From positions 70,596,181 to 70,660,180 of the forward strand of contig NC_058340.1 in NCBI RefSeq assembly GCF_905475395.1: a stretch of DNA of 64,000 bases. The letters run 5' to 3'. Shown here one piece after another: positions 8,657-54,649 of the stretch. Position 1 is the stretch's first letter, and each line of letters opens with the position of its first letter. The notes beneath the pieces were generated by a model. That model was not told the DNA's origin and did not search any database. It saw nothing but the letters and a program-made list of their open reading frames with translations. This DNA comes from Chrysoperla carnea (taxonomy: Eukaryota; Arthropoda; Insecta; Neuroptera; Chrysopidae). A program made the translations under genes and the position numbers.

Positions 8657-8806
8657 TGGATGCAATTCATGAAAACACATCAGATGGTAATTCAGAACAC
8701 AATTCATCAGGAGATGAAGACTCACAATTAAGATTGCGATTGAAACGAAAACTACAAAGAAATCGAACATCATTTACCAATGAACAAATTGACAGCTTAG
8801 AAAAAG
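8657..8806 (+). CDS. toy: twin of eyeless (Pax6 class), exon with linker and homeodomain N-terminus
   Basis: First visible coding exon of a Pax6-type transcription factor. It starts after acceptor ttttcag and ends at donor AAAAG|gtatac; the first codon is split (phase 1 in) and the last base begins a split Glu codon. It encodes the acidic linker [17 protein letters not shown] followed by [15 protein letters not shown] and NEQIDSLEK, i.e. the N-terminal arm and helix 1 of a paired-class homeodomain. The linker wording is close to that of Drosophila Toy. The product is a nuclear DNA-binding regulator at the top of the insect eye-determination network, acting upstream of eyeless. The break after SLEK is the same homeodomain intron position that I recall from vertebrate PAX6. 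Paired-domain exons are upstream of the window, so this gene is partial here only because of the window edge. Confidence 0.96.
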
Positions 8807-13738: not shown

Positions 13739-13894
<156 letters not shown>

Positions 13895-28104: not shown

Positions 28105-28292
28105 GTATGGTTTAGTAATCGAAGAGCTAAATGGCGACGTGAAGAGAAATTACGTAATCAAAGGCGTGCAGTTGAACAAGTCGCTGCTGTAAGTCCACCA
28201 GCTCCAGCACCACGATTACCAATTAATTCTGGTTTTAATTCAATGTATTCATCGATACCACAACCTATTGCTACAATGGCTGATACTTACAG
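28105..28292 (+). CDS. toy: twin of eyeless, recognition helix and proline-rich region
   Basis: Exon between acceptor ccttacag and donor TACAG|gtaatg. It begins in phase 0 with [21 protein letters not shown], the DNA-recognition helix and basic tail of the homeodomain. Position 50 is Ser, the diagnostic residue of Pax homeodomains. It continues with an Ala/Pro-rich stretch and the blocks [11 protein letters not shown] and [14 protein letters not shown], which are shared with insect Toy but not with the divergent C-terminus of Drosophila Eyeless. This is why I call the gene toy rather than ey. It ends with two bases of a split Ser codon. Confidence 0.97.
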
Positions 28293-35461: not shown

Positions 35462-36227
35462 CAGTAGAATCTCGATAAGTTAAAGTCCAAGGGAAACAAA
35501 AAATATTTTAAGTTATAGAGGTTTTTAGTTATTAAGGGTCTATGTTATTGAATGCATCAGAAGGATGGGATGTTCTAAATTAGGGAATTCGGCATTTTTT
35601 TGTCTTTTACATTGAAGATTTCCTCCTGATTCTTGTTTCTTCAAGATTTCAGCTTCTTTTTTAATGATGAGAGACAATGTACTCTCATGTATTCCAAATT
35701 GAGCCGCAACTTCTTTCCTTTTCAATCCATTTTTCACTGCTTCTATAGCTTTTAATTTATCAGCGTAGGTGAGGGTTGTTAGTTTTCTTTTTGTACTCAT
35801 TTTAAGACAGTTTTATCACACAGTAAGTAAAGCGATGTTTCCAGAACAACAATCAAAAAACTTATGATGCAAGTATGTCGTTGCCACAAAGCTAACCACC
35901 GCAAAGCTTTGAAGAATTTAGATAAAGCAAACAATAGGTAATGTTATTGTTTACGTTAACAAGTAAAAACGTGCAAGCAATAAATATCGAAACCATTTGT
36001 TTTGACACTCTTTCAAAATGACTCATTCACACAATTTTATGTTATAGAGGTTGTGGAAACATTTCTTTTAGTTACTGAGGGCCTAACAGAAATTATTTAT
36101 TTAAGTTATAGAGGTTGCGTATTTTAAGCTATAGAGGTTTTGGGCTCTGATGGGAAGGGAACGTAGTATTTTTTGAAGTAACTAAGGTTTTTATGTTACC
36201 GAGGTTTAACTTATCGAGATTCTACTG
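35462..36227. mobile_element. pogo/Tigger element with truncated transposase
   Basis: A 766-base element with perfect 23-bp terminal inverted repeats (left starts cagtagaatctcgataagtt; right 36205-36227) flanked by TA on both sides. Subterminal words of the type agttatagaggtt are repeated several times. It carries a broken transposase frame on the - strand and so is a non-autonomous deletion derivative. Confidence 0.93.
35540..35800 (-). pseudogene. pogo/Tigger (CENP-B-like) transposase, N-terminal remnant
   Basis: 86 residues starting MSTKRKLTTLTYADKLKAIE, with AVKNGLKRKEVAAQFGIHES and TLSLIIKKEAEIL: the helix-turn-helix (psq/CENP-B N) DNA-binding domain of pogo-superfamily transposases. 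The frame then ends after about 35 unrelated residues. The second DNA-binding domain and the DDE catalytic domain are missing, so it is catalytically dead. If expressed it could still bind the element ends. Confidence 0.88.
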
Positions 36228-38560: not shown

Positions 38561-38808
38561 TTCAATGTCAACAAGTTTAACAAGTATGAGTAGTAGCTGC
38601 TTACAACAACGAGATCCAACAACAGCATATCCATATATGTTCCATCATGATCCATTACATCAATTAAGTACAACATATAATCAATCACGTGCTGCAGCCG
38701 TATCAGCTGCATGTAATTCAGCTGTGGCACATGCTCAATCAGCTGTAAATACACATCCATCGTATGGGAGTGCATCGGGTACAAGTTCTGCACCAGCTAC
38801 TGGCACCG
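38561..38808 (+). CDS. toy: twin of eyeless, Ser/Thr/Ala-rich transactivation exon
   Basis: Exon between acceptor tgttccag and donor ACCG|gtaagt. Its first base completes a split Ser codon and its last G begins a Gly codon finished in the next exon. It encodes a Ser/Thr run (SSMSTSLTSMSSS), the Toy-like block CLQQRDPTTAYPYMFHHDPL, and an Ala/Ser/His-rich low-complexity tail. This is the C-terminal activation region of Pax6-class factors. If the donor were not used, the frame would run on through the intron to a stop ending at 38948, adding about 46 codons. That alternative has no conserved content that I recognise. Confidence 0.95.
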
Positions 38809-41035: not shown

Positions 41036-42742
41036 TAGCTATGCATAGTACTTCTTAAAAGAAGAAATCTCAATTATTATTATATCAAAATAATAACTAG
41101 AAAAATTTTTTCTATTATTAGAAACTATCTTAATTTTTGTTTTTGAACAATTCCACGGAATACATAAAATTATGCAATACTAGAGATTTATCAATGGGAT
41201 TACCTTACAAATAAGGGTCTTCGAATTGTATATATAAGTATCTTCACCCAAATGCTGTCTGAAAATCTTATTATTTCGACAAAAGACCATTCAGACTCAT
41301 AAGACAGGGAGATCACCACCCTTCAGATTGCATTATAATATCCCTGCAATTCACTGCAAGCTGTTCATGTGAATGTCACTCTTATGATCCACACATTAAA
41401 CTTCTGATTTAATTTTCCTCCTTCCCTAACGCTGTTGGCAGTCTTTTCAAGACATCTTGATAGGCTATGCATTACCAAAAAGTCATGAAATATCACCGAG
41501 TACACATACCCACACGCGTAGACATAAATCCAAAAGTGGTTTTAATATATTGTCTCGACCATGTAAAGTAAAAATATGGTGAAAATTTCGATTTGGATTT
41601 TAGAACCGATTACAAGAACTTTTCTCTACTAGGAAGTTAAAAAAGAGTGTTGAATTCAAATGACTGTTAATCTATGTATTTCCAATTAATTAACACCATT
41701 ATAAAATTGAAATGACGCCAATGTTAAAATCCATCACGTGTGAAGAAGGTTAGAACATTATATTAAACGATAGATATAGTCTCCATAGTACCAGCAGAGC
41801 CAAAGATCGTGAAGTGAAATAATAGGAATCCACCTCAATTTGACGTGAAAGTGGCGCCACCTTACTATAAAACTATATACTACACAACTGTAAGTTGGAC
41901 GGAAATCAACATTGAATATATATACGACGAAGTACTCAGAAAAGATCTCATTCCCTTTCAACACCACTACTGTTTCCGTTTAAATGAATTCACAGTCGTT
42001 CACCGGATGCAAATGACTGCCTTCTTAAAACCGTACAATATATATTATGTATTCTATGTAGAGAAAAACACATTCCTTCTTCTTTTTCTTCATCATTTTC
42101 TATATCGCCATTATAGAAATTATTTTTTTTTTTTAAACTACACAATCTCTAAATAATATCTTATGAGGTTATAAACTTCATATTATCTTTCATAATGCTT
42201 TTAAAAATTCACGTAAGGGAATTTTTCCATTTTGTACAGATTATTTTAGTACCCAGCACCGGATTTAGAAACTTGCAGGTAGTAGACACTAGTAAAATTA
42301 TGCATATCATGACATGCTCTTTGTTAATTATAGGCCCCTTCAACTAAAAACTTGAACATTGACTTTTTTTCTAATTGGGAATAATTTAAAAAACTAAAAT
42401 TTTTCATGTGCTGTTATAGGCCTGGGTCTTGTCGATTTACCGGTAAATCCAGCGCTGGTAGTATCAAAAAGTCGTGCTTAAACATTCTCTACTGTCTTGG
42501 TTTTTCGATTACCTTATTCGTCCCGTTTGTGTATAGAACCTCATTTCAGATTCTTATCTTTAGAATCTCTCTTCAGACATCAAGCGACAATTTTGTTGCT
42601 TCTCTTGACTTTCGAATATTTCTTGTTGCCGCCAAGATCCTGAACATTTAATTATCTTTGATTTCAATTTTCCAATTCACTTATAATCTAAGTTTGATTT
42701 TGCTTAACAATTATTTATATCGAAATATTTATTTTGTTGCAG

Positions 42743-42831
42743 GTGTAATTTCAGCTGGTGTATCCGTACCAGTACAAATACCAAGTCAAACGCCCGATTT
42801 AACAACAAATTATTGGCCACGAATTCAGTGA
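42743..42831 (+). CDS. toy: twin of eyeless, terminal exon with Pax6 C-terminal signature
   Basis: Follows acceptor ttgttgcag. Together with the preceding G it encodes GVISAGVSVPVQIPSQTPD and LTTNYWPRIQ, then TGA at 42829-42831. The GVSVPVQ...YWPR(L/I)Q ending is the classical C-terminal motif shared by vertebrate PAX6 and insect Toy, so this TGA is the ancestral and expected stop. The visible part of the protein is about 251 residues. Unusually, the frame stays open for 57 more codons after the stop (see next entry). Confidence 0.96.
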
Positions 42832-43005
42832 TCGCAACTATTCGGGTTTCCGCCGCCGAGAATACTCGTGCATTCGGATAACCCGCCATCAACAGTAAAT
42901 ATGCAGCACAACAATTCCATATCACCATCGATAACGGCTACATCCACATCACCGCCAATTGTTGCACCAACCATTTCCAATATTGATCCACAACATTCAA
43001 ACTAA
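42832..43005 (+). CDS. toy: candidate stop-readthrough extension of toy (57 codons plus TAA)
   Basis: Directly after the TGA the same frame continues SQLFGFPPPRILVHSDNPP, then STVNMQHNNSISPSITATS, then TSPPIVAPTISNIDPQHSN, ending at TAA 43003-43005. Seen: no stop in 57 codons, Pro/Ser/Thr-rich content like the activation domain before it, and base composition clearly richer in G+C than the AT-rich sequence after the TAA. In sequence this AT-rich, 57 stop-free codons by chance are unlikely, although the local GC content weakens that argument. Inference: a readthrough product, stimulated by the stem-loop listed next. It could instead be an open stretch of 3' UTR. A separate start at ATG 42901 would give only a 34-residue peptide. 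No splice route was found that removes the TGA and keeps this frame. Confidence 0.5.
   Translation, partial: SQLFGFPPPRILVHSDNPPSTVNMQHNNSISPSITATSTSPPIVAPTISNIDPQHSN
42843..42885 (+). promoter_or_regulatory. stem-loop just downstream of the toy stop codon
   Basis: CGGGTT (42843-42848) pairs with AACCCG (42880-42885); TCCG (42849-42852) pairs with CGGA (42875-42878) with T42879 bulged; CGAG (42857-42860) pairs with CTCG (42865-42868) around an AATA loop. That is 14 pairs, mostly G-C, in otherwise AT-rich surroundings. The stem begins 11 bases after the TGA, the kind of spacing known for RNA structures that promote readthrough (for example Drosophila hdc and alphavirus UGA sites). Pairing was worked out by eye and no folding energy was computed. 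Confidence 0.55.
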
Positions 43006-43063
43006 ACAAGAAATTTTCTAAAAGTGTGTTACTATAGTTCGGGATTTAAAAAAAAGAAACACA

Positions 43064-43069
43064 AATAAA
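43064..43069 (+). promoter_or_regulatory. candidate toy polyadenylation signal (AATAAA)
   Basis: Canonical AATAAA about 60 bases after the TAA of the extended toy frame and 233 bases after the TGA. In sequence this AT-rich such hexamers are common, so its use is uncertain. Confidence 0.3.
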
Positions 43070-43740
43070 CAAAAAAAGTATATTATAACACCCGGTGTAC
43101 AGGGTAAAAACACAAAAATTGTTTTAACTTTTCGATTTTTTTTTTTTGTAAATAACCTAATCTCAATGTGCCAAAAATTATGATATTTATTCTTGTCAAC
43201 ACAAATTTGATGAAAAATTTACAAATCGGAGCCGAAAAAAGTGATATGGACTCCTATTTCTAAGAGAAACCGCGGCCAGAATTGTAATTAATGCAGGCAT
43301 TTCCTATTAATGCAGGCACTAATTCCGTCTCGAACAACACTTTTAAAACGAAACGCACTTATAAGCGTAAAATATTCCAAGAAATATAAGAGTCTGTAAC
43401 AATTTTTCAGCTCCATTTTGTAAAACCTAGATTTAAGTAAAATTAAATGCGTTAGTAAAATGAAAACATATTCGTTCGGAAATGGTTTTAATCAAAAAGT
43501 AAGTACCTAAAAACAATTTTATTGTTTAAAATGGTCACATGTATATATAAATTTTATTAGTAATTAGTAGAATCGCTCTTTTAAATTAATTAATACATTA
43601 ATTGTAATATTTATTACGTATTATTACTTACACAATTAAATTTATGGTTTTAATTAGTTATTTTTTTAAAAACAAACATCCCTTAATAAGTATATCTATT
43701 ATATAGATATGTATATAAAGATTTTTGACATGTATTTAAC

Positions 43741-43778
43741 CATAGATGTGAATAGCATTGAGGTTATTCATATCTATG
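43741..43778 (+). repeat. hairpin in the toy 3' region
   Basis: catagatgtgaata (43741-43754) pairs with tattcatatctatg (43765-43778), with a ten-base loop and one G-T pair. It would form a stem in the toy 3' UTR if that UTR extends this far. The arms are too short for a typical miRNA precursor, and function is unknown. Confidence 0.5.
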
Positions 43779-45401
43779 ATTTTTAACTATTTAATGTGTG
43801 GTTTTAACGCAAGGTGGCACTTTACAATTATTTTTTGACAGTTGTTGCTCCTTAGTTATGTTTTTTATCGTAATTTAAGAATCATCCTAGTTTTTGTGAA
43901 TACATGAATACACGAAACATTTTTTTAAACTTTACGAATTTTCCAACGAGTAACCAAAAATAATAATTATAATATTCACCAGATTATTTACTAGTCAAGA
44001 TAGTTGCCGTTTTCGTATAAAAAAAATTCAATTGTTTTCAACGACAGAAATTACAATTTGGCAACATCAAAATGAAAAAAATAACTACACATGATTTAAT
44101 GAAACATCTTTTATTAAAAGTTTTTTTTTTTTTTTTTAAATACAAAACTGGATTGAAATAATCCAACTGGTTTTTTGTTTTTTACAAGTAAGCTAATATT
44201 TTTCTTAATTAAAATAAAAATATATCTATTTGAATATATTAAAATAATTATAGTAAAACCTAATAATACTTATTAAATATTTTACTTACAAACAGAAAAA
44301 TAATACTCAAATTTTTTATGTGTCTACACAAACAAAACAGTTAACATTTATTATAAAACTACAATTTTCGAAAATATTTTAATTCGCTTGAATTAATTTA
44401 ATTAATTTACCAGTCGTGGATTCTTCCATTCTTTACATGTATCCTCCAAAACTCAGACATACATAAACTCTTCTGTATTAGTGTTTTTTACTCAAATCTG
44501 AAAGAATAATTGGTGGTTTTTGAAATAGAGAGTATCAATCATAAATAGAAACAGATTTGCAATTTTGATGCTACATTGAAGTTTTTTTGGATTCAAATAT
44601 CAACAGAATTTCGTTTCTCTTCGAATTCGGTGATCCAAGTAAAAAAATTCAATTTTTTTTCTCTTCAAATTCAGAAACAATGACTTTTAAAGGTAATTTT
44701 ATCCAAAAGAAAATAATATTCGGTCCAAAATAATGTCAGGCTCGTAGTTTTTTGTTTAAGACTTTTAAAACTCCTTCTAGAACCAAAAAATCAATATCCG
44801 CCTGTGGGAACCCAAATTTTAATATACATAGGGTATATAAAAAAAAATTAGATTACTATTTAAAAAAAAAAATGAATTGAATAAGACAGTGATATATAAA
44901 AATCCAATTTTATATACAGAAATCAATTTAATTTTCTCTTCGCATACGGTTTTCTCTCATACTTAATAATCTGACGGCTGTGTACCCTACTCCGACTGCC
45001 TAGCTCTCAACTCATGCTATACTCACTATATATTGTTGATGCTTAGTCGAAATTTACACAATTCAGTGAGCACATAGGAAAGGGTGGTAATTTGTTAAAC
45101 TTGCAGACAACTAAATAGTAGAACATGTTTTATTAAAACCCCATAGTTTCGCATAATTTATTTATTTATTTTTTTCATTTTATTTTAAATTGTATTATAT
45201 TGATTTGAAGAAACTAAAAAAAAAAATTTCACAGATTTTGAACACATTACCCGAGCCCCGTTTATTTACTCTTTTTTCTTTTGTTCGAAAGGGGTAGATG
45301 ACAAATTTTTTCGTAAATTATATTAAAATTCATAACATGAAAGAAAAATAATTAAATAATATTTCAAAAAGATTTAGCTCAAATTAATTTATAAATTAAA
45401 A

Positions 45402-48646: not shown

Positions 48647-48870
48647 TTAAAGAGCCAGTTGAGATCCACTCGGTGTTGTCAAAATTGCTTGATACTGTTT
48701 CACCGCTCGACTTGCAACTAATGGTTCACGTTCAGATCTTTGTAAGTGTGTTTCCAAGCGACGTTGCATATATGGTGGTGGTGGGAATGGGGGTCGTCCT
48801 CTTTGTTGATAATATTGATAACCATAGCCACTAATTGCTAGAGCAGCCCATAAAATATACAATGCTAGAT
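48647..48870 (-). CDS. TM7SF3: TM7SF3 orthologue, last exon (TM7 and cytosolic tail)
   Basis: Final exon on the - strand after acceptor tttgttttag. A Gly/Asp-type split codon is completed, followed by LALYILWAALAISGYGYQYY (seventh membrane span), then QQRGRPPFPPPPY, which matches the conserved RGRPFFPPHPY-like segment after the last span of vertebrate TM7SF3, then a basic tail ending SGSQLAL and TAA at 48649-48647. The gene converges on toy. TM7SF3 is a seven-span membrane protein reported in mammals to be p53-inducible and to dampen cellular and ER stress; its role in insects is not established. Confidence 0.93.
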
Positions 48871-49069
48871 CTAAAACAAAGAGAAAAAATCAAATTTATA
48901 GCTTAAAACCCTTTTCAATAGGTACGTTCAGTACTTTGTATTTTAAGAGTCCAATCCTTCTTTAATTAATGAACTTTGTGGTTTTAATGAACTTTGTGGC
49001 TTCGTTCTAGGCGCCGTTCCACTTTCATAACAACCTTAAAAGAAGCATTCTTATAAAACAGAACATTAC

Positions 49070-49330
49070 CTCGATTTTGGAACGGTGGATCAATTATAAC
49101 ATTTTGAAATTCTGGTTCAGTAGCTCGTCGTAAAACATTAATTAAAATATATTTTAAATTCGCTCCAATATATCGATCCAATGGTATAATCACACAATAT
49201 CCACCCAAAACACTACAAGCTAAAATATTAGCGTGTTGAGTGATGATCGATAATGACATTGCGGCTGATAGAATTATCGAAACAAATAACATCCAATAGT
49301 TTACATCAAGTTGCATTATTTGGAAATCCG
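49070..49330 (-). CDS. TM7SF3: TM7SF3 orthologue, exon with TM5 and TM6
   Basis: Acceptor tttttgtag and donor CGAG|gtaatg on the - strand, phase 1 at both ends. It encodes two hydrophobic spans, WMLFVSIILSAAMSLSII and ANILACSVLGGYCVIIPL, followed by the TM7SF3-type segment DRYIGANLKYILINVLRRA, whose vertebrate counterpart reads similarly (D-Y-...-L-Y-I-LNVLKRA), and FQNVIIDPPFQN. All reading frames join cleanly with the neighbouring exons. An open frame continuing past the donor is intron readthrough only. Confidence 0.93.
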
Positions 49331-49389
49331 CTACAAAAATTAAAAATAATTAATATTCAATGATTTTAGGATTTATTTTTTAAACTTAC

Positions 49390-49542
49390 CAAGACCAACG
49401 TGATAAAAAACCGATGCAATTACAAATCCTACAACTAAATTCGGTAAAGTCACTGCTACAATTGGTATTCCGAAATAGCTCCATACTGATAGCCAAACTA
49501 ATCCACTTGCAATTCCAATTAATAGGGAACTTAAAATATTCG
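49390..49542 (-). CDS. TM7SF3: TM7SF3 orthologue, exon with TM3 and TM4
   Basis: A 153-base exon, acceptor ttctattttag and donor TTG|gtaagt on the - strand, phase 1 in and out. It encodes SNILSSLLIGIASGLVWLSV then WSYFGIPIVAVTLPNLVVGF and VIASVFYHVGL, i.e. two membrane spans. The W-x-x-F-G-I-P/L motif between them matches the mammalian W-W-R-F-G-I segment. Confidence 0.92.
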
Positions 49543-49564
49543 CTAAAATAGAAAAGTATTTCAT

Positions 49565-49870
49565 CTATTAAAATACTCCCTGGCGTTAAAGGGAGTGAAA
49601 CAGCAGGCTCGTTGACACGAGAGGGGTAGTAACAAAGGCTCCTTTCACTTTAGCCTGTCATTACTATAACAAGATGTTCCAGAATTTACCAAATCATGGA
49701 ATGGCTACGACAAACCTATCTTGATTACTGGGACTTGGCACAGGGCAGGAGATAGAACAAACTGTGTATAACCAAAGCTAGGCGAATTGAACTACCACCT
49801 TCATAACATAGGGATGTCGAATGAACCCACTTGAAGGGCCTGTATGGAGCACAATGAAATAAAAATATAA
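49565..49870. repeat. possible transposable-element remnant in a TM7SF3 intron
   Basis: This 300-base stretch of the intron is less AT-rich and more complex than the surrounding introns and ends, on the + strand, in an A-rich tail (aataaaaatataaaaaa near 49858-49874). This looks like the 3' end of an old retroposed sequence, but I cannot name a family and no target duplication was identified. Confidence 0.3.
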
Positions 49871-49887
49871 AAAAGATTATAGCTTAC

Positions 49888-50055
49888 ATTCAAGACTTTC
49901 ATCCTCTGCAATAGAAATAAGAATATACGAAACCAGAGATCCAGTAAATAATCCTAATAAAAATACACCAGTCTTGAAAAATTTATGTCCAAAATAACAG
50001 CCAAAAAGTCCCAAAAAGAATACAACTCCAATCAGACTTTGTAAGAACGGTGAAG
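49888..50055 (-). CDS. TM7SF3: TM7SF3 orthologue, exon with TM1 and TM2
   Basis: Acceptor gtgttttag and donor GAAT|gtaagc on the - strand. It encodes SPFLQSLIGVVFFLGLFGCY (TM1), the FGHKFFKT loop that matches mammalian FGHRFWKT, then GVFLLGLFTGSLVSYILI (TM2) and an acidic turn. The FGH-F-KT motif is the strongest single link to TM7SF3. Confidence 0.94.
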
Positions 50056-50130
50056 CTAAAACACACACATAAATTCATAGTTATTAACTTGGTCATGGTG
50101 GTCCAAAAAAATTGTCCACACAATACTTAC

Positions 50131-50302
50131 TTATATCTTCACAATAATTTGACCATTGTAAAATATCACAGGAATAAGACACAATCGGTACATACGCAGA
50201 CGATTGATTATTATACGTGGCGATCATCGCAAATACTTCGCCCAAACCATGATAGGTACTGTATTTTCGACGTAAATATGGACTATTCAGTGGAGCTGGA
50301 AC
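50131..50302 (-). CDS. TM7SF3: TM7SF3 orthologue, extracellular exon before TM1
   Basis: Acceptor catgttacag and donor ATAA|gtaagt on the - strand. It encodes a luminal segment containing FAMIATYNNQSSAYVPIVSY and SCDILQWSNYCED. The SAAYIPxxTYAC motif of vertebrate TM7SF3 is recognisable as SSAYVPIVSYSC, and the cysteines are likely paired. It starts in phase 0 and ends in phase 1. Confidence 0.92.
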
Positions 50303-50450
50303 CTGTAACATGGATTTTTATATTATTGTAACTAACAAAATAGTCGAAAGCTACCAGACGCTACTTTACAACGGTGGTTCATCAAGTGATTTTCACATCA
50401 GGTGAATATTAAGTCACGTAAAAGTATTATTTTAATTTTTAAATATTTAC

Positions 50451-50704
50451 CTTATGACCATTTTCTAAAATATTTGAAACGGTCATTAGTTGACGTATCC
50501 CATTGAAATATGTTTCCGGCGTAAAATCTTGCTCTGGTAAGAATAAATGATACATATCATACTGTATCTTTTGTTTATCGCATGTTGTATTACTGATCGA
50601 TGCAGCTTCACCATCCACAGTTATTACACTATCAGTCGAAGTTAATTTTAAATATGGTGCAATTTCTGTATTAAATTCCAAATTACAACCACCAGGAACA
50701 GGTA
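50451..50704 (-). CDS. TM7SF3: TM7SF3 orthologue, extracellular exon with PVPGGCNLEF
   Basis: Acceptor tttttcaacag and donor CATAAG|gtaaat on the - strand. It encodes VPVPGGCNLEFNTEI, matching the invariant DPVPGGCNLEF of vertebrate TM7SF3, and IQYDMYHLFLPEQDFTPE, matching the vertebrate QYDVYQYFLPENDLTEE segment. Two conserved cysteines are present (GGCN and TTCDK). This is part of the large luminal N-terminal domain. Confidence 0.95.
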
Positions 50705-50769
50705 CTGTTGAAAAAATAAACATTTTCAGTGAACAAACACACAAACCTGGCAGATATTCTTAAAGCCCA

Positions 50770-50985
50770 CTCAATAATTTCATTCTAACTAACAGCCGTC
50801 CCCCTTCCCAGGACCAGATTAACATAAACATCATAATTGCCGGAGCCCACAGCCGGCTTCTCTTACAAATTTGTGTCCTTTTCTCTTTTGACTTCTCCTT
50901 TTTCCCGAGGCCCCTAGGCAATCGCCTTCTCCGCTTTATGCTTAATTCGCCACTGTATACCGCCCCCTTCCCCCGTAACATACTC
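50770..50985. mobile_element. GC-rich insertion in a TM7SF3 intron, possible hAT-like MITE
   Basis: About 220 bases are strikingly richer in G+C than all surrounding sequence. They include cccgaggcccctaggcaatc and, read on the - strand, a start resembling cagtggcgaattaag, a type of end I associate with insect hAT-type MITEs. I could not define a clean inverted repeat or an 8-bp target duplication, so the class is a guess. An open frame on the - strand here is compositional. Confidence 0.3.
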
Positions 50986-51000
50986 AAACAATCAACTTAC

Positions 51001-51336
51001 CATTATTAGTATAAAGAACTACGCTTAACATCGTAGTAACATTAACTGGATTCGAATTAAATATCCAAAATGATATTGCTAATTTATTATTTAGAAAATA
51101 TAAGCCGACATTTGTACCATTTACATACATATGTGGCTGTAAAACAACGTCCGTATACGATATCGATACATTATATCGAAAGGTGTGCGCTTCACATATC
51201 AAAAATGAATTTGGTGTTTTAGGAATATCCGTTACATGAATTGATTGTATAGTGTTTGGAGATATTGTGGTCATGGTCTCGAATATTTCATCACCACTCG
51301 AATTGGACGTCTTAAGTGATATCGTAATGGGTGGAC
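51001..51336 (-). CDS. TM7SF3: TM7SF3 orthologue, first identified exon (luminal domain)
   Basis: Acceptor tttttttccag and donor AATG|gtaagt on the - strand. The exon codes for 111 residues of a luminal, N-glycosylatable domain (several N-x-S/T sites: NSS, NVS, NGT, NVT). With the other six exons it gives about 521 residues, against about 570 in human TM7SF3, so only roughly 30-50 N-terminal residues including the signal peptide are missing. That exon should lie between 51337 and the ANKS1 start. I did not find a convincing one. The split first codon is N|GT. Confidence 0.85.
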
Positions 51337-53443
51337 CTGGAAAAAAAGAATTTAAAGATTCGTTATCAATTTAACCTTTTGTAATTCCGTTGATAATGAA
51401 TTTTTTTTCAAGGCGAACTGTGATAAAAATAATCTTATCACCAAAAAATCATCATATAAATACTATGTTAAAAAAATATTATTACATATTTCATAGACTT
51501 GGAAACAATGACACAAAGTTTCAATCCTTTTGTTACAAATTGGGCGATCATTAATACGTCACAACTATGGAGGGTAGAGATAAGGAGAAATATATCTGTA
51601 TATGGAGTGTCCACGAAAAGCAGAAAATTGATGGCTCTTTTGTAGTAAAATTTTAAGTTTTAAAGGAAGTTAGAGTAAGATAAAGATATAACCAAGTTGT
51701 AAGAGGACGATAGAGACCGCCACATCAAACACCTTTTGCTAAACAAGCGATATTCTGGTCAATTTTAGAATTTTAATTTTACTGTTTTCCTGGACACAGT
51801 TTTACTGTTTTTTTACTTTAACCCTTATTTAAAATTGCCCTCCTTATCTCTACCCTCCATGGTTACAATTCTGGCCAAGCTTGACTATAGAAAGAACTTG
51901 TAACAAGCTTAATTTTATTTGTAACTTTTTTAAAAGCATACCTTCAGTTTAAATTGAAAAATCGTTAGACACGATTATTACAATTATTTTTAAAATAAAT
52001 TTTTATCGAAATAAAAGAAAAACTTTTCCAAAGTAAATTAATATGCACTAAAAAGTAAAAAAATAACGATAATTTAATGTAGTTAAAATTATTGTTATTT
52101 TTGGAGTCGGTGTCAGCCAAGGAAACAACTCCGACAGAACAGTTTGCTACATTAGCTTGGCTGACACCGACTCCAAAAATAACAATAATTTTAACTACAT
52201 TATAGTATCGTTATTTTTTTACTTTTTAGTGCATATTAATTTGTTTTGGAAAAGTTTTTCTTTTGAAATCGGTTTTCTTTTTGTTAAAATTTTTTTTATT
52301 TTGTGATTTTTAGTAAATATGAAGTACACTAACTAATTTTTCACTAAAAAAAGAATCATCTAAATCGGTTGGCGTGATATTGAGTTATTCGTCCTCTTAT
52401 CCTGCATACTTAATGCAGACTTTTATGGTTTTCTCATGGATGCCGTTGTCAGAACTGGACTAAAATGAAATGGGACCACACGGGAAACAGCTTTCAAACA
52501 GATAAAGAATCATCAAAATTGGTTCACCCAGTCGAAAGTTCTGAGGTAACAAACATAAAAAAAAAAAATACAGCCGAATTGATAACCTCCTCCTTTTTTG
52601 TTTGAAGTCGGTTAAAAAGAGATCGTGACATGCAAGCAGAAAAAAATGTTAAACAATGAAGACATTTTTTTATTTTGTTGGTACTGAATCTTTAAGATAA
52701 AGTAAAATCAGCGCTTTTACAAAGATTAAAATTTATTTACGATTCATTGATAAGATATTAATAATAAATGATGGTATTATCATCCCATTTTCCTATAAAT
52801 TTTTGTTTTTTTTTTTAAATGAAAATATCTTCGCCTTCATTAAAAGACTTTTTTTTAAGTACATTAAATAACAAAGGTTTCATTTCTGTAAATATTTCAG
52901 CAAAAAAAGACACGCAATAATTTGACTTTCAAATTTTTTATTTACCATTTTGCATTTGACAGAAGATAACATTCCATGTAACCATGAAAAGTAAGGTTAA
53001 GTATATGACAGATAACAACACATTTCGCTCACGCATTTTATTTCAAAACAAAAGAACAACATAAAAACTAGTACACATCTATTTACAAAAAAAAAAAGAA
53101 ATTCACACTCCAACACTTTTTTAAAACAATAGATAAACTTCGATATTCATTTGTTTTAATGATGACATAATGTTGGTCATATAAGAAAAACAAAACACTG
53201 AGATGATAACACGAAACGCCTGCCACTGACATGGATATCAGCTGTTGTTGGTAAAACTCATTCCTGTAATATCGATTCACATTAAAATAGTGTTCAGTGC
53301 CGTGTAACATGGCCGTGTACGATCAATGAATGGGTTTATATGAAAAAAATGTACATTTAAAAAAAAAAACAATTAAGTGTGTGGAATATGTTTGAGTGTG
53401 AATTTTTTTGAAATAAAAGTGGTGAATTTTGTGTAAATGGGCA
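51337..53443. other. divergent interval between TM7SF3 and ANKS1
   Basis: This interval should contain the missing first exon of TM7SF3, the promoters of both genes and the ANKS1 5' UTR. Seen instead: AT-rich intron-like sequence, a 105-110-bp near-perfect inverted repeat (52011-52265) followed by a tail resembling insect non-LTR 3' ends (to about 52615), and a T-rich stretch to 53300. The short open frame on the - strand starting at ATG 53310 has a hydrophobic run but no good donor in the needed phase. Confidence 0.6.
52011..52265. mobile_element. foldback element with about 108-bp inverted arms
   Basis: The left arm (52011-52121) is the near-perfect reverse complement of the right arm (52157-52265), separated by about 35 bases. 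For example ggagtcggtgtcagccaag at 52103-52121 returns as cttggctgacaccgactcc at 52157-52175. The arms differ by only a few substitutions and short indels, so the insertion is young. The sequence that follows (to about 52615), with aacctcctccttttttg and gaagtcggttaaaaag, resembles a common insect repeat tail, and the foldback may be part of that element. Confidence 0.7.
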
Positions 53444-53547
53444 ATGGGAAAAGATCAAGAGCTGTTAGAAGCAGCTCGAAATGGCAATATTGCTGTCGTG
53501 GAAAAAATACTTGGCCAAAAAGCTAAGAGGAGTGGTCCTCTTGCAAG
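53444..53547 (+). CDS. Anks1: ANKS1-type ankyrin/SAM adaptor, first coding exon
   Basis: Begins MGKDQELLEAARNGNIAVVE then KILGQKAKRSGPLA, which matches the start of vertebrate ANKS1A/ANKS1B (MGKEQELLEAARTGN...). It ends at donor GCAAG|gtgggt in phase 2, just where the ankyrin repeats begin in the family. The ATG at 53444 is chosen by homology. An upstream ATG at 53437 is in another frame and overlaps it. ANKS1 proteins are cytoplasmic adaptors with ankyrin repeats, SAM and PTB domains that act on receptor tyrosine kinase signalling. All downstream exons lie beyond the window. Confidence 0.88.
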
Positions 53548-54649
53548 GTGGGTTGTTCATTATTGCACTTTTTTTGTTCGAATTTTTTTCTTAATATCTT
53601 TTAATCCAAATTCCAAAGTTCTAAATAATATAATTTTACTGAAATTTCTCATTTTATTACGTTTGATTGTTAATTTAATTTATAAAAATAAACAAATTAA
53701 TTAATATGATAATTATTTTGGGTAATTGTTGTGAGTCTGATCTAATTTTGTTTCGCTTTTATAAATCGATTACTTCCTCATAAAATATAACTTCAATGTA
53801 AATTTATTTAATTTTATTTAAAAAAGGTATGTGCAGATTTCTTTGCGAAAAATCTTTTAACGCATGTTTTAAACGATCGAGCAATTTTTAGTACAATAAG
53901 ACGATACCATTAAATTAAAAGGGAAATAGGAAATCTATAAGCTTAATATTATGCACTTTTTAAATCGGGTTTAAAGTTGATTCTATATTCCGTCATATTT
54001 TCTAATTGTTCGATTATATAAAGAAAAAAATTAGGTTAAGATTTTTCGAATCTCGTATTTATGTAAATGAAATAATAAATCTTGCTATATTTGCAGTTTC
54101 TTTGTTTATAAACTTTTGCAGATGTAGGTATAATAAAATTTTAATTAGTTATAAATTTTATTAGAGATAAAAATGTATATGTTTACTTTGTGGTTTACTA
54201 ATCTGTATAATATATAAAAAAATGTCGGTGTATTTCCCCGAATTGAGTTAATCTCGAAAAACATATTTAAAATGTAATTTACTACAAAATTTTATCTAGA
54301 TTAATTGTCAATATGTTGTCTAAGGGCTTTGAAAATTAATAATTTAACGACTTTTCAAAGAAAAATAATTAAATTGATGAAATAAATTTTATCAATTTTT
54401 TGTTAACGAATTTTCTTTGTAAAATGAGTTTTTCCTGTTATGTTTAATATTTATTTATTAGAATTCATTAGTTTTAAATTGCTATTGAACTCACATGGGT
54501 TTATTGGGAAATATAAATATAGTTTTCAAAGAAATAAAATTGATTTAAACTCCAACCCGTTGTGGTTAATTTTTTTTAGTCAATGGGTAATTTTGTTCGT
54601 TGACCCTAACATGCAAATTCATATCCTTCAGATTTAGGGCTCCGTAGCA

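Follow-up and report, generated by a model that had tools for sequence, protein, structure and literature searches.

An in-frame 57-codon extension with a predicted hairpin behind the UGA of a putative lacewing twin of eyeless gene: a candidate for stop codon readthrough

Pax6, a master regulator of eye development, is sensitive to dosage, and C-terminal run-on mutations of human PAX6 are harmful. In the 64,000-nucleotide stretch of the Chrysoperla carnea genome analyzed here (the window), a gene with a Pax6-type C-terminus ends in TGA, and the same frame continues beyond this stop. Is the continuation translated in some of the proteins, or is it a 3′ UTR whose frame happens to be open?

The exons of the gene were found by tblastn, with a Drosophila melanogaster Toy sequence as the query (Table 1). 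The five exons (8657-8806 through 42743-) form one frame of 252 codons that ends in NYWPRIQ-TGA; the first of these codons includes one assumed base (G), which comes from an exon upstream of the window. The exon at 38561-38808 encodes a C-terminal region that, by analogy with the family, is presumably the transactivation region. In the joined protein, the paired-class homeodomain was recognized by Pfam (PF00046, E 8.3e-24), and the best PDB match was the Pax6 homeodomain 2cue (E 7.4e-35). No paired domain was matched within the 64-kb window by tblastn with the Toy sequence; it should lie upstream of the window. At the acceptor of the last exon (42743), TGTTGCAG stands before the junction and GTGTAATTTC after it, and the in-frame tail, GVISAGVSVPVQIPSQTPDLTTNYWPRIQ, directly precedes the TGA.

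A YWPR(I/L)Q C-terminus is typical of Pax6 and twin of eyeless. YWPRIQ-TGA ends both the window gene and a second Pax6 gene of the same genome, whose tail (C4:5934268-5934354, minus strand) lies on contig C4, as the window does, and is 59% identical to that of the window gene. Compared with the Drosophila Toy tail, the identity is 75% for the window gene and 55% for the second gene. Because its tail is the nearer of the two, the window gene is provisionally called the lacewing twin of eyeless (toy), a probable assignment based on these tail identities.

Table 1. Features of the toy locus, in window coordinates.
Feature	Position	Strand	Basis and remarks
toy exon, start of homeodomain	8657..8806	+	tblastn, splice boundaries, frame; split codon at 5′ end
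toy exon, middle of homeodomain	13803..13885	+	tblastn, splice and frame fit
toy exon, end of homeodomain and start of Pro/Ser/Thr-rich C-terminal region	28105..28292	+	tblastn, frame
toy exon, C-terminal region	38561..38808	+	tblastn, frame
toy last exon, tail ending in NYWPRIQ	42743..42828	+	tblastn, frame; 74-75% identity to D. melanogaster Toy tail
First stop, TGA	42829..42831	+	read from sequence; context CAG TGA TCG, +4 base T
Predicted RNA hairpin, about -20 kcal/mol	42843..42885	+	folding; begins 11 nt past TGA
Weak alternative acceptor, skipping TGA in frame	AG 42894-42895, exon start 42896	+	in-frame test; score -10.0
In-frame 57-codon extension, SQLFGFPPPRILVHSDNPPSTVNMQHNNSISPSITATSTSPPIVAPTISNIDPQHSN	42832..43002	+	frame, composition tests; genome match
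Second stop, TAA	43003..43005	+	read from sequence
First AATAAA polyadenylation-like signal past TAA	43064..43069	+	motif match only

Several other features lie in the window. A TM7SF3-type gene (48647-51336, minus strand) follows toy and is oriented the other way, and two of its exons match Pfam TM7S3_TM198 (E 6.9e-13 and 1.4e-7). An exon-like open reading frame with MGKDQELLEAARNGNIAVVEKILGQKAKRSGPLA (53426-53704, plus strand) was not matched by Pfam with an E cut-off of 0.1; presumably, it resembles the start of an ankyrin/ANKS-type protein. One toy intron contains an open reading frame with a CENP-B N-terminal domain (35540-35812, minus strand; Pfam E 2.9e-11), which is probably a remnant of a pogo/Tigger-type transposon. 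About 740 bases past the TAA, a near-perfect hairpin was recognized by eye (43741-43778, plus strand), and folding of 60-nt windows gave -20.9 kcal/mol at both 43720 and 43740. Its Rfam match was sub-threshold only (miRNA family MIR774, E 4.5); the hairpin may be the precursor of a small RNA or what is left of an inverted repeat.

The sequence-only reading from which this work started had placed 57 open codons between NYWPRIQ-TGA and a TAA at 43003, and these coordinates were confirmed. In a sample of 20 stretches of the same genome (200 kb), 131 of the 7172 TGA triplets have at least 57 open codons behind them. Within the window, 47 of 2374 stop-to-stop runs initiated by TGA reach this length. 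Dinucleotide shuffling of 42829-43505 left the frame open in 65 of 2000 cases, and shuffling of the extension alone did so in 1109 of 5000. Openness by itself is an event of about 2-3%, and of 22% when the composition is granted.

The composition was also examined. The extension had been described as GC-richer, and its GC content is indeed 0.456 versus 0.288 in the following 500 bases. The accompanying statement that the sequence becomes AT-rich at once after the TAA holds approximately: by composition, the change point is best placed at 42979 (GC-only change point, 42973), and its central 80% interval (42971-43011) includes the TAA. A GC content of at least 0.45 over the next 171 bases was observed at 24 of 7172 TGA sites. 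Only one of the 7172 sites (200 kb) combined this content with at least 57 open codons, and one combined the open frame with a 60-nt fold of -20 kcal/mol or lower; since this null pools sequence of every type and the toy site was picked for its openness, 1/7172 serves as a guide and not as a probability.

The residues of the extension are rich in Pro, Ser, Thr, and Asn. In a search of the 559-Mb genome with the extension, its own place was the sole match (1 candidate scored). An origin from a transposon or repeat is unsupported by this search. No repeats of at least 12 bases were detected at 42700-43300 by a method that is blind to a bulged hairpin, and Pfam did not match the extension peptide with an E cut-off of 0.1. 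Among viral and prokaryote contigs, 12 and 54 pattern matches, respectively, were obtained, none of which was confirmed as a relative. Thus described, the anatomy of the extension is unusual for the C. carnea genome.

The main rival to readthrough is that the extension is an untranslated, structured element of the 3′ UTR, consisting of a hairpin and a C-rich, G-poor tract and possibly regulatory, in which the frame is open by chance. We regard this as rather unlikely. The number of open shuffles of the same composition is in its favor, whereas the inclusion of the TAA in the change-point interval argues against it.

The coding signal of the extension was analyzed next to these data. Its three-base periodicity was reached by 57 of 5000 shuffles. 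This periodicity stems from the second half (51 of 5000 shuffles), and the first half has no clear periodicity (654 of 5000). In the two adjoining downstream stretches of 171 bases, no periodicity was present (1170 of 2000 and 401 of 2000 shuffles). For the codon scores, a table of 802 codons from three genes in the window was used, and 13 known exon blocks were scored leave-one-out. When the toy frame was compared with the other forward frames, the extension scored 0.46 per codon, and the exon blocks scored 0.18-0.71. The score was 0.57 for codons 19-57, 0.55 for codons 22-57, and 0.07 for codons 1-18. In this single-sequence test, codons 19-57 have a coding-frame bias resembling that of known exons, and codons 1-18 are unlike ordinary coding sequence. 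In the six-frame comparison, the extension scored 0.35, which is close to the lowest values of the known exons (0.29-0.77).

Among open shuffles, 3 of 1500 matched the extension in the forward-frame score (0.46) and 43 of 1500 in the six-frame score. Real open sequence is a harder null: among 132 real open stretches after TGA, the numbers were 16 and 47, respectively. Five of the 132 stretches have a GC content of at least 0.40, and none of the five reached the forward-frame score. Similarly, when overlapping noncoding segments with an open frame were taken from the window (2127 in all), 177 reached the forward-frame score and 632 the six-frame score; with a GC content of at least 0.38, these numbers were 0 and 9 of 116. 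The chance-open 3′ UTR is thereby favored by the match of 16 real stretches and by the absence of coding signal from the first 18 codons; on the other hand, the frame bias and periodicity of the later codons are against it.

The same uneven signal bears on alternative splicing. The sequence-only reading had found no splice path round the TGA that keeps the frame; in our survey (GT sites 42743-42835, AG sites 42829-43002), such routes do exist on paper, and the three acceptors that they use are all poorly scored. The exon 38561-38808 joins in frame to an acceptor at 42896. Small introns within the last exon also keep the frame, namely from GT 42758 or 42785 to 42896, from GT 42745, 42760, 42766, or 42772 to 42907, and from GT 42828 to 42861 (33 nt). 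Use of a second acceptor, most plausibly 42896, would yield a Toy isoform that ends in VNMQHNN...QHSN and lacks NYWPRIQ.

This route accords with the frame, which fits whether 42896 is joined to exon 38561-38808 or to a cryptic donor, for example 42758, with a score of 0.55 (known donors, 0.57-0.87). It also accords with a coding signal that is found after 42896 (codons 22-57) and not before it (codons 1-18). The pyrimidine share before 42896, 0.53, comes close to the 0.58 at 42743, the acceptor of the last exon; the other toy acceptors have 0.74-0.89. Nevertheless, with a position matrix made from 12 acceptors inferred in the window (leave-one-out scores -3.1 to 10.3), the score of 42896 lies at the 50th percentile of all plus-strand AG sites, and acceptors 42861 and 42907 score -14.4 and -12.0, respectively. 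Moreover, the 21 codons from the TGA to 42896 would be open without need, an argument that is weak at such a length. We consider alternative splicing improbable.

Codon 24 of the extension is ATG, and a separate short open reading frame of 34 codons could start there and be translated independently, toward the 3′ end of the mRNA. The coding signal is located in that part. However, this frame is exactly that of toy, and the preceding 23 codons are likewise open. In addition, reinitiation of translation downstream of a long open reading frame is generally rare. We consider a separate short frame very unlikely.

The hairpin stretch 42843-42885 folds more stably than its shuffles (z = -3.9, matched by 3 of 500), in a comparison whose stretch was chosen after the fold was known. 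Windows fixed on the stop are less striking: z = -2.64 for 60 nt (6 of 500 shuffles), -1.82 for 80 nt (23 of 500), and -1.85 for 100 nt (11 of 200). Within the 64 kb, -20 kcal/mol was reached by 2 of 1065 60-nt windows, and a fold of -20.4 kcal/mol or lower was observed at 9 of 4000 sampled TGA sites. Six pairs of the outer stem were checked in four contexts; four had a probability of at least 0.98 and two had 0.62-0.88. No known RNA family was detected at the Rfam gathering score within the window.

The codons of the hairpin differ in their third positions. G or C occupies 10 of 15. The corresponding count for toy is 43 of 252 (Fisher 6e-5); for codons 19-57 it is 12 of 39 (Fisher 0.029), which is slightly above toy (Fisher 0.049). 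Such an excess would be as expected under a constraint on RNA structure. Since the unusual codons cluster within the hairpin, this would explain the atypical codons 1-18, if they are coding. The clustering would also fit a noncoding structured element.

The UGA bases themselves are predicted to be paired in some folding contexts, and such pairing is in keeping with another recoding of the UGA, by A-to-I editing to UGG or by selenocysteine. The predicted pairing at the stop shifts with the stretch that is folded, and this speaks against both. Selenocysteine is unsupported at the toy UGA: of the four Rfam matches that 42743-44000 gave with an E cut-off of 5, none is a SECIS family. We consider editing or selenocysteine very unlikely.

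As controls, ten stops of the same genome were analyzed: those of eight OAR-type homeobox genes, the second Pax6 gene, and the TM7SF3-type gene. A toy-like extension was present at none of the ten, only three of which are TGA, and none showed more than 22 open codons, a GC content of at least 0.45, or a fold of -20 kcal/mol or lower. The OAR-domain genes were obtained by a genome search (13 candidates scored) that includes two weak matches (E 0.04 and 0.5); their stop was taken to be whichever stop comes first when the OAR frame is followed, so that an overlooked intron could mislead. After these eight stops, 0-22 codons are open, the GC content is 0.15-0.43, and the folds are -0.7 to -16.5 kcal/mol. 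The OAR gene at C1:55687561-55687608 (minus strand) is the most extension-like, with TGA-G, 22 open codons, GC 0.43, and a fold of -16.5. The TM7SF3-type gene stops at TAA, which is followed by 6 open codons, GC 0.23, and a fold of -1.3.

The second Pax6 gene ends in QYWPRIQ TGA CCT TGG TGG GCG TAA, that is, with 4 open codons, and the sequence after its stop has a GC content of 0.23 and a fold of -11.7. Its context, TGA-C, is the leakier one, yet only these 4 codons are open. For the chance-open 3′ UTR, the ten real stops are adverse evidence, as the GC content after them is 0.15-0.43 and a fold of -20 or lower occurs in none.

Taken together, readthrough fits best, because of the composition, the frame bias of codons 19-57, the predicted hairpin, the single genome match, and the lack of an extension in the paralogue and the other controls. 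We consider structure-assisted UGA readthrough, which yields a long Toy protein, the best explanation and somewhat more likely than not. The +4 base is against it, being T, whereas C is leakier and commonest, although this preference is a tendency and readthrough does not require it; the T also favors the chance-open 3′ UTR. Also against readthrough is the frame bias of codons 1-18, which is nearly nil. The sequence-only reading had suggested possible readthrough, and that part stands as the best fit, qualified by first codons that are not coding-like and by splice routes that exist on paper.

From these data, we infer the passage of ribosomes through the UGA, the stimulation by the hairpin, and a function of the tail as follows. 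Most ribosomes would terminate at the UGA and release a normal Pax6-type protein with the C-terminus NYWPRIQ. A fraction would decode the UGA by a near-cognate tRNA, probably aided by the hairpin 11 nt downstream. A position 11 nt past the stop lies approximately at the mRNA entry of a ribosome paused at the stop. Ribosomes that read through would add the 57 residues and end at the TAA, and the longer Toy would probably carry a disordered tail behind the C-terminal region. Tentatively, we propose a fuller possibility: one lacewing toy mRNA may give rise to two master eye regulators, a short Toy and, by hairpin-stimulated readthrough, a Toy-long; the 57-residue disordered tail, its use being regulated by tissue or stage, would occur in one of the two Pax6 genes found.

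If true, a natural, regulated C-terminal extension of Pax6 would illustrate how insects alter such a protein while the main product is unchanged. The paralogue without an extension provides a built-in comparison for toy, and the toy hairpin is a clear, testable cis-element.

The window gene shares the homeodomain and the YWPRIQ C-terminus with the Pax6/twin of eyeless family. Proteins of this family are not known to continue beyond the YWPRIQ stop; the second Pax6 gene of the lacewing also has none, unlike the window toy. We found no literature linking readthrough with twin of eyeless, or stop codon readthrough with Neuroptera. No word beginning with "toy", "eyeless", or "pax" is present in the main texts of PMC5100048, PMC8417969, PMC4999894, and PMC3840789, and none beginning with "toy" or "eyeless" in the main text of PMC4528330; Drosophila toy may appear in supplementary lists such as FlyBase File S5.

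Stop codon readthrough is described for many insect genes. The text of PMC5100048 gives at least 283 candidates in Drosophila and 353 in Anopheles; in both fly and mosquito, most readthrough stops are TGA, and the next base is C in 49-63%, depending on the group compared. RNA structures are predicted for 9-10% of the candidates versus <1% of other transcripts (PMC5100048). Among fly transcription factors, readthrough is predicted for 75 of 703 (PMC8417969). As far as these sources describe the class, toy is alike in the UGA first stop, the in-frame second open reading frame with some coding character, the predicted structure within 100 nt of the stop, and the transcription-factor host; it differs in the +4 base, which is usually C and in toy T.

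Two Drosophila genes allow a closer comparison within the accounts given in PMC8417969. In headcase (hdc), a stem loop near the stop is reportedly necessary and sufficient for readthrough. The likeness to toy lies in this stem loop; the toy hairpin is predicted only, and the gene is a different one. The POU factor Drifter/Vvl has a UAG-C stop, immediately behind which a stem loop is predicted; the readthrough of Dfr was experimentally tested, and the extension of the long form (Dfr-L) is termed unusually long (PMC8417969). Drifter/Vvl shares with toy the role as a transcription factor, the predicted stem loop after the stop, and a low-complexity extension, and its UAG-C stop differs from the UGA-U of toy. 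By analogy, toy appears to fit the insect readthrough class except for the T at +4. In a further difference from the sequence-only reading, the mechanism as such is common in insects: readthrough of toy would add an important gene to the known cases, without being of a new type.
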